DNA from: Zestosphaera sp.
Lineage (GTDB): Archaea; Thermoproteota; Thermoprotei_A; Sulfolobales; NBVN01
Reading direction: 5' to 3'
Assembly: GCA_038843015.1 (NCBI GenBank)
Contig: JAWBSH010000009.1
Coordinates: 1 to 64,000, forward strand
DNA: 64,000 bases
Positions 7,267 through 32,620 of this stretch are shown in pieces. A program made the position numbers and the translations under genes. Positions within the stretch are counted from its first letter, which is position 1. Each line of letters starts with the position of its first letter. The notes beneath the pieces are model-generated. The model did no database searches, was not told where the DNA came from, and saw nothing but the letters and a program-made list of their open reading frames with translations.

Positions 7267-7755
7267 TTGGGTGGTGTTTTATTGCCGAGTAAAGTTGAGG
7301 ATTACCCAAAGCACATAGCTCAAAACAGCGATAAAAGCTCTAAAATCAACTTCGAGGTTGTTCATATATGGACGTATAAGTATCTGTTGATGAGAATAAC
7401 TGAGATTGGAGAAGAGCACGGTATCAGAGTGGAGTTTGTCAGCGAAGAGAATACATCCACTATCTGCCCACTATGTATAGTGAAGAACCAAGACCACAGA
7501 AGAGTATACAGAGGATTATTCAAGTGCTACAAACACAGCAAAGTATTCAACGCAGACCTAGTTGGAGCATACAATATTCTATTCAAAACAAAAACCATAC
7601 CCCCGAGCCCCACTCTACACGGGGTAGGGGTAACGCGCCTGAGACCGAGCGCAGAGCTAAACCCGGCGATAGCCGGGAATGTAGCTCCAAACCTCCCCGA
7701 AACCCTCGCCCTTCAGGGCGGGGAGGAGGTCAGAATATTGGGAGATACTATCTAG
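7267..7755 (+). pseudogene. Truncated tnpB (IS200/IS605 family), C-terminal third with right end
   Basis: Only the C-terminal part of an RNA-guided TnpB nuclease remains: FEVVHIWTYKYLL, then VEFVSEENTSTICPLC carrying the RuvC-II glutamate and half of the zinc finger, then GLFKCYKHSKVFNADLVGAYNIL with the RuvC-III aspartate. The RuvC-I half and DNA-binding domain are gone, so it cannot be a working nuclease. From about 7600 the frame runs through the GC-rich right end (reRNA/omegaRNA region) that stops at the conserved GGTCAG near 7733; the stop codon lies in flanking DNA at 7753. Homology to the decayed copy at 55524-56200 begins near 7290. Confidence 0.8.
7600..7733 (+). ncRNA. Right end / reRNA-like region of truncated tnpB element
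   Basis: GC-rich tail of the tnpB remnant containing several short stems (CCCGGC..GCCGGG near 7661-7677 and the CGCCCTTCAGGGCG hairpin near 7707-7720) and ending in GGGGAGGAGGTCAG. In functional TnpB systems this segment is processed into the guide RNA scaffold, with the guide coming from the sequence just past the boundary. Related ends occur at 10698, 13758, 15838, 28443 and 55524. Whether it is still transcribed is unknown. Confidence 0.55.
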
Positions 7756-28287: not shown

Positions 28288-28389
28288 TGCGGGGGGTGGG
28301 ATTCGAACCCACGCAGGCCTACGCCATCGGGGCTCCCACCATGTTCGGACCTGAGCCCGACCCCTTTGACCTGGCTCGGGCACCCCCGC
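28288..28389 (-). tRNA. tRNA-Leu(CAG) with 17 nt intron
   Basis: Acceptor GCGGGGG (28389-28383) pairs with CCCCCGC (28295-28289); T-arm GTGGGTTCGAATCCCAC. The anticodon stem TCGGG/CCCGA frames loop CTCAGGC after removal of an intron of about 17 nt (28349-28333) at the canonical 37/38 site. The long variable arm TGGCGTAGGCCTGC makes it a type II tRNA, so Leu. Mature length 85, no encoded CCA. TATA cttataaag at 28412-28422 (minus strand) sits about 28 bp upstream. Confidence 0.92.
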
Positions 28390-32031: not shown

Positions 32032-32299
32032 TAAAATGCTCTCAGAGAATTATAAGCTTTTATATCGAGAGACATACCAACATTTAACAGGTTAGTTATC
32101 TTAGCAGTCGCGATACTACTGTCAAGAACTCTTAAGAGTTTTATACGATGTCAAGAGGAAATCAGGTGACTTAATGACTGCTAGAATAGACAGAAGTAAT
32201 GATTTAGTGTTATATTTGTTGCAGTATCTCGTGACGCGTGCGTAAGAAGAGGAGAAATAAGTGAAGCGACAATTAGCAAAGCGTGTCTAGAGGGTTGAC
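32032..32299. other. Gene-free promoter region
   Basis: Upstream region of rps30e (TATA-like ttataagctttta at 32050-32062 read on the minus strand). The rest has no supported gene. A TATA-like tgttatattt near 32209 faces the structured region at 32300 but is about 90 bp away. Confidence 0.35.
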
Positions 32300-32545
32300 A
32301 ACTGTTTCGGTGCGTTGGGTTTATAATGGTTTTGTAGGGTTTTATGTTGGTGTTTGGGTGAGTCTGGGTGGCGAGGGGGCGGTGCCCCGAGCCACCCAGG
32401 GACCAAGCTAAGATGTGAGTCCCGTGCCGTCGGGCTTGAAGAGTGCTTATGACCCCCGCGTAAAGTAGCTAGCAACCAAGATGAACCGCGGCAAGATGCA
32501 CAACCCATCCTAGAAAGCCTACAAAACCTAGGACAGGAAACGGTT
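32300..32545. ncRNA. Candidate structured RNA, about 246 nt, unidentified
   Basis: GC-rich island between AT-rich flanks. The ends pair: AACTGTTTC (32300-32308) with GAAACGGTT (32537-32545), nine pairs with one G-U. Just inside, GGTTTTGTAGG (32328-32338) pairs perfectly with CCTACAAAACC (32518-32528). A hairpin CTGGGTGGC...GCCACCCAG (32364-32372/32391-32399) is capped by GGGGC-GGT-GCCCC. Further stems at 32421-32434 and CCGCG/CGCGG (32456-32460/32487-32491). I find neither the SRP helix 8 nor RNase P core motifs. Strand unknown; a transposon origin is the main alternative. Confidence 0.45.
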
Positions 32546-32620
32546 AATTCTTGACGGTAGTATTGAGGAGGCCGGTGCTTATTTTACGTCTTGGGCGCTG
32601 AACACCGCGTTTAGTTCTCA

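Follow-up and report, generated by a model that had tools for sequence, protein, structure and literature searches.

The window, i.e. the whole 64,000-nucleotide stretch of DNA analysed, contains a GC-rich segment that lies between two divergent genes, with nop5 downstream. Aligned copies of this segment delimit a unit that starts with GGGTT and CAACTGTTT and finishes with GGGAAACGG, the window equivalent being 32292-32543, and the following parts can be told apart:

32292-32543, plus strand: whole miniature IS607-type element, from GG to GG, 252 bp (comparison of copies; empty site rebuilt for sister copy G000:C3 by joining its flanks at GG; covariance-model match ending at 32543)
32292-32339, plus strand: left end (LE), with the terminal GG, the CAACTGTTT motif and the subterminal GGTTTTGTAGG motif (match to the LE of a complete element)
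32320-32327, plus strand: TTTATAAT, TATA-box-like, within the LE (sequence)
32364-32399, plus strand: 5' hairpin, perfect 9-bp stem with an inner G/C stem (sequence; several solo copies)
32408-32543, plus strand: reRNA/omegaRNA scaffold from the 3' end of tnpB, plus the right end (RE) (kinship to the tnpB C-terminus LDVSPVPLG...)
32417-32437, plus strand: scaffold helix P1, 32417-32422 with 32432-32437 (covariation)
32457-32490, plus strand: scaffold helix P2, 32457-32460 with 32487-32490, enclosing P3, 32468-32470 with 32474-32476 (covariation)
32504-32537, plus strand: right-end hairpin, including the end motif CCTACAAAACC at 32518-32528 (comparison of elements; covariation)
32544-32563, plus strand: host flank, putative guide part if the reRNA is transcribed (position past the RE; analogy)

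Ends, pairings and fold

Over 58 bp, the LE of the window unit shares 84% identity with that of the complete element G027:C2:341001, and an LE is found in most copies in the window's own genome. The full element and several copies likewise have the sequence TTTATAA in their LE, and judging by its letters the TATA-like TTTATAAT could drive transcription through the element. If a reRNA is transcribed, its guide would be read from 32544 onwards, by analogy with IS607 TnpB reRNAs (PMC10711439).

The three pairings on which the original prediction was built are all present, namely a 9-bp pairing of 32300-32308 (AACTGTTTC) with 32537-32545 (GAAACGGTT), made up of eight Watson-Crick pairs and one T.G, an 11-bp pairing in which 32328-32338 (GGTTTTGTAGG) is perfectly complementary to 32518-32528 (CCTACAAAACC), and a 9-bp hairpin formed by CTGGGTGGC (32364-32372) and GCCACCCAG (32391-32399) with an inner G/C stem. 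The pairs proposed as closing helices thus exist, but a single end-paired cellular RNA is not supported, and the pairs coincide with motifs common to both transposon ends. The LE and RE share short motifs at unequal spacing, with GGTTTTGTAGG in the LE, CCTACAAAACC in the RE and AAACCT repeated, and the outer 9-bp pairing consists of AACTGTTTC of the LE together with GAAACGG of the RE and two bases of host flank, 32544-32545. The complete element carries the GGTTTTGTAGG and CCTACAAAACC motifs too, at differing distances from its two ends, and such unequal distances are likewise known for the end motifs of IS607 (PMC6188088). Since the long-range closing pairs coincide with shared transposon-end motifs, they need no explanation at the RNA level.

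The plus strand of 32290-32555 folds with -97.8 kcal/mol (z = -2.6, none of 200 shuffles being as stable), and the fold of the minus strand is less remarkable (z = -1.6). The Rfam search suggested as a check was run: at gathering and relaxed thresholds nothing relevant was found at the candidate or at the related loci L055, L058, L063 and L066, and no family, e.g. SRP, RNase P, sotRNA or RAGATH-18, exceeded the gathering threshold at the candidate.

Some solo copies of the own genome and of genome G009 share the 5' hairpin at 32364-32399, with compensatory differences; in the other copy type it is reduced. In full-length tnpB, the coding sequence ahead of the scaffold lacks this hairpin, and a hairpin of similar plan stands in the equivalent place in SMN2 of virus SMV1. 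Judging from the sequences compared, loss of the interior of the known full element would not by itself account for this hairpin.

Copies and insertion sites

In the own genome, a DNA search with 351 bp around the candidate as query turned up 12 or more copies or pieces, spread over many contigs and several of them spanning nearly the entire unit, and the covariance-model matches there number at least 16. The unit is hence a dispersed multi-copy element without a transposase gene, i.e. a MITE or solo element. Multiple scattered copies next to transposase genes had been named beforehand as the observation that would speak against an RNA reading, and this is what the copies, together with a congener element carrying tnpA and tnpB, now provide. 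By DNA search, matches occur in 16 of the 31 genomes of the family, with miniature copies being numerous in G009; the scaffold covariance model has matches in 107 of the 197 genomes of the order at E <= 0.001, of which the weaker ones may be other TnpB guide RNAs with part of the scaffold in common. Searched against plasmid and phage DNA, the element gave zero matches, and Sulfolobus viruses match at the protein level only. At L011 (G000:C4:126687-126726) the right-end hairpin CCCGTCCTAGGAAAACCTACAAAAACCTAGGACGGG stands alone, the rest of the element being missing.

The sister copy at G000:C3:92.5 kb interrupts a different TnpB element within the guide-RNA end of the latter, and the flanks of the copy, when joined at a single GG, align to the C7 paralogue with no gap at the junction. 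Insertion at GG without target duplication was thus found for this one sister copy, and it fits IS607, since the GG-joined flanks match the uninterrupted paralogue and the IS607 pattern is a crossover between GG dinucleotides in which target duplication is absent (PMC6188088; PMC10711439). As to the window copy, the site upstream of nop5 holds a short spacer only and no element in G028 and G027, and the window insertion is therefore lineage-specific; the site holds other sequence in G026, and the contig of G029 ends within nop5. The spacer upstream of nop5 in the window is longer than that of the relatives outside the element too, and the borders of the window unit are drawn from the comparison of copies and from the GG junction of the sister copy. 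Elsewhere in the window, 28288-28389 on the minus strand is a tRNA gene of about 100 bases, probably intron-bearing.

Complete elements and the guide-RNA scaffold

A complete element with the same LE, tnpA, tnpB and the same RE is found in the congener G027 (C2:341001-342954, locus L058). Its TnpA is a 225-aa serine recombinase (NF033518 transpos_IS607, 4.3e-65), and its TnpB, a member of the RNA-guided nucleases related to Cas12, has 423 aa (guided_TnpB, 2.5e-33). A second tnpA-tnpB pair with the RE of the miniature family occurs in G002 (L067; NF033518 3.6e-63). An IS607 serine recombinase is thus encoded by a related complete element with the same ends, and because the G027 element matches, the window unit can be described as LE, tnpB 3' end and RE minus the protein genes: the latter are absent, and both transposon ends and the TnpB guide-RNA scaffold are retained. 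When translated, the 3' half of the window unit furthermore matches the C-terminus of an 'IS605 ORFB family protein' of STSV2 (72% over 36 residues) and, more weakly, MITE-SMN2 of virus SMV1.

In the own assembly, which is about 96% complete, no TnpB of the miniature's subfamily was found beyond C-terminal scraps within copies, and no cognate TnpA was found either. Contig C7 of the own genome does hold an intact IS607 element, with a 46%-identical TnpA, an LE similar to that of the miniature (CAACTGTTT...AGGTTTATAAGGGTT) and a different guide-RNA end. Direct derivation of the miniature from TnpB genes or pieces of its own genome was ruled out, since the 3' ends differ, and a TnpB scan across named genomes returned only three MAG loci, labelled Thermoproteota archaeon.

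Several TnpB-related loci show features of their own. At 642-1328 on the minus strand of L067 (G002:C104), a LAGLIDADG-type ORF (Pfam 2.5e-9) splits the tnpB of an IS607-type element in the vicinity of the zinc-finger region; this RNA-guided nuclease gene may harbour an intron or intein. L064 1622-2932 (G027:C1:552.6-553.9 kb) shares its LE and RE with the miniature family and encloses an antisense 401-aa ORF, the similarity of which to TnpB is marginal (E 0.007); a different GC-rich structured stretch at the 5' end of this ORF (L064 2790-2900) has six matches in the own genome, one of them adjoining the partial copy L009. Positions 7384-7578 of the window, plus strand, hold a piece of another tnpB (Cas12f1-like_TNB, 1.3e-11), followed by its own GC-rich end.

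The scaffold at 32408-32543 has four helices, and covariance model R1 scores 126 bits on it, the window copy being part of the training set. Among 27 solo copies, 95.2% of cells are paired as compared to 88.8% in shuffles and double-sided changes are seen at 12 of the 21 pairs; none of 500 shuffles reaches any of five measures, and the signal collapses when the partners are slid. The clearest helix is P1, in which 97% of cells are paired and five of six pairs show double-sided changes, the variants by lineage being GAGCCC/GGGCTC, GGGGCG/CGCCCC and GTCCCC/GGGGAC. The rows underlying this covariation share descent and part of it was fixed while the region was coding, and because the sequences share ancestry with tnpB-linked copies it shows the fold of the family and not selection on the solo copies. 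The proposed covariation check is in other words borne out for the scaffold helices but not for the own-genome copies alone, where pairing is not above shuffles (p about 0.27); the 13 solo copies of G009 display a slight pairing excess (p 0.004, a value inflated by relatedness). In the window copy P1 and P2 are whole, while P3 and the RE hairpin have each lost one pair. Origin from the 3' end of tnpB and a conserved fold together identify the scaffold as a TnpB reRNA.

The unit resembles IS607-family insertion sequences, which consist of a serine recombinase tnpA plus tnpB, in its GG-bounded ends, the absence of target duplication, the short motifs at both ends and the tnpB guide RNA at the right end, but differs from them by having no protein genes and an extra 5' hairpin. 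SMN1 and SMN2 of Sulfolobus (MITE-SMN2 in SMV1) are likewise about 250 bp in length and of low coding content, and share GATGTGAGCCCCGTGCCGTTGGGCTCGAAGG, the P1 motif of the scaffold, as well as a 5' hairpin similar in plan, whereas the right part of SMN2 differs and an IS200-type transposase has been proposed as its mover. TnpB reRNA/omegaRNA families, such as the RAGATH-18-derived IS607 reRNA and the haloarchaeal sotRNAs RF02656/RF02657, also have a scaffold at the tnpB 3' end and a guide from the flank, but the scaffold of the miniature family, unlike the RAGATH-18 IS607 type, overlaps the coding end of tnpB, and in contrast to the known families it has zero Rfam matches.

Identity, alternatives and history of the element

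We conclude that 32292-32543 on the plus strand is a non-autonomous IS607-type element of 252 bp and as such derives from a mobile element rather than being a cellular RNA in its own right, and we hold it to be very probable that the GC-rich fold belongs to an archaeal IS607-family transposon reduced to miniature size and stripped of its protein genes. Of the two readings offered originally, the end of a mobile element is supported by the scattered copies and the relative with tnpA and tnpB, while a new functional RNA is not, beyond the covarying TnpB reRNA scaffold.

It is rather unlikely that the solo copies are functional guide RNAs, whose transcript from the LE promoter would arm TnpB in trans, cut element-free alleles and retain the miniature copies. 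Such a function would be consistent with the TATA-like box of the LE, the intact P1 and P2 of the window copy, the high copy number and slight pairing excess in G009, and the fact that archaeal TnpB omegaRNAs are known and expressed (PMC12558985), but the cognate TnpB was not found in the own genome, the own copies show zero pairing excess and the G009 value is inflated by relatedness. A miniature element of the IS200/IS605 type, depending on a Y1 transposase, is very improbable: viral relatives are annotated as IS605 OrfB, the RE has a hairpin, and of the known miniature elements of TnpB transposons, SMN1 and SMN2, the latter is attributed to IS200 mobilisation (PMC3839810), but complete elements with the same ends encode an IS607 serine recombinase and not a Y1 transposase, and the sister insertion has a GG core, and on these two grounds an IS200/IS605 origin was rejected. 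Least tenable is a new end-paired, GC-rich cellular RNA gene that would be conserved in front of nop5/fibrillarin and might regulate it, since the stable fold, the GC island, the zero Rfam matches and the divergent-gene spacer with nop5 downstream are outweighed by the copy number and the complete element, which largely refute it, by the match to transposon ends and the tnpB 3' end, and by the facts that the nop5-upstream spacer of relatives is without the element, which rules out a conserved nop5 regulator, and that nop5 retains a TATA-like box of its own on the downstream side of the element.

The miniature IS607 derivative would have been moved in trans by an IS607 serine recombinase, either a cognate one that has been lost or the TnpA of 46% identity resident in the genome. 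From the TATA-like box in its LE, the 5' hairpin, the scaffold and the flanking guide may be transcribed, and the resulting solo reRNA might be usable by TnpB in trans. In its own genome the window copy is most probably no more than a passive relic, because no cognate TnpB is seen in the nearly complete assembly and two scaffold pairs are broken. It is distinctly doubtful that the miniature elements serve as solo genes dedicated to guide RNA, which with an LE promoter, a 5' hairpin of their own, a TnpB scaffold and a new guide per insertion site would depend on borrowed TnpA to move and on borrowed TnpB to be retained; if this were true, they would constitute a guide-RNA-only selfish element spreading through thermophilic archaea.

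Miniature elements of TnpB transposons and archaeal TnpB guide RNAs are already known, and what is new is a family unlisted in Rfam and the explicit link to IS607. An apparent new RNA gene thereby becomes a mobile-element derivative, the outcome being a covariance model of archaeal TnpB guide RNAs that are linked to IS607 and form a family missing from Rfam, and with so many solo copies one can ask whether TnpB guide RNAs persist and work without an adjacent nuclease gene.
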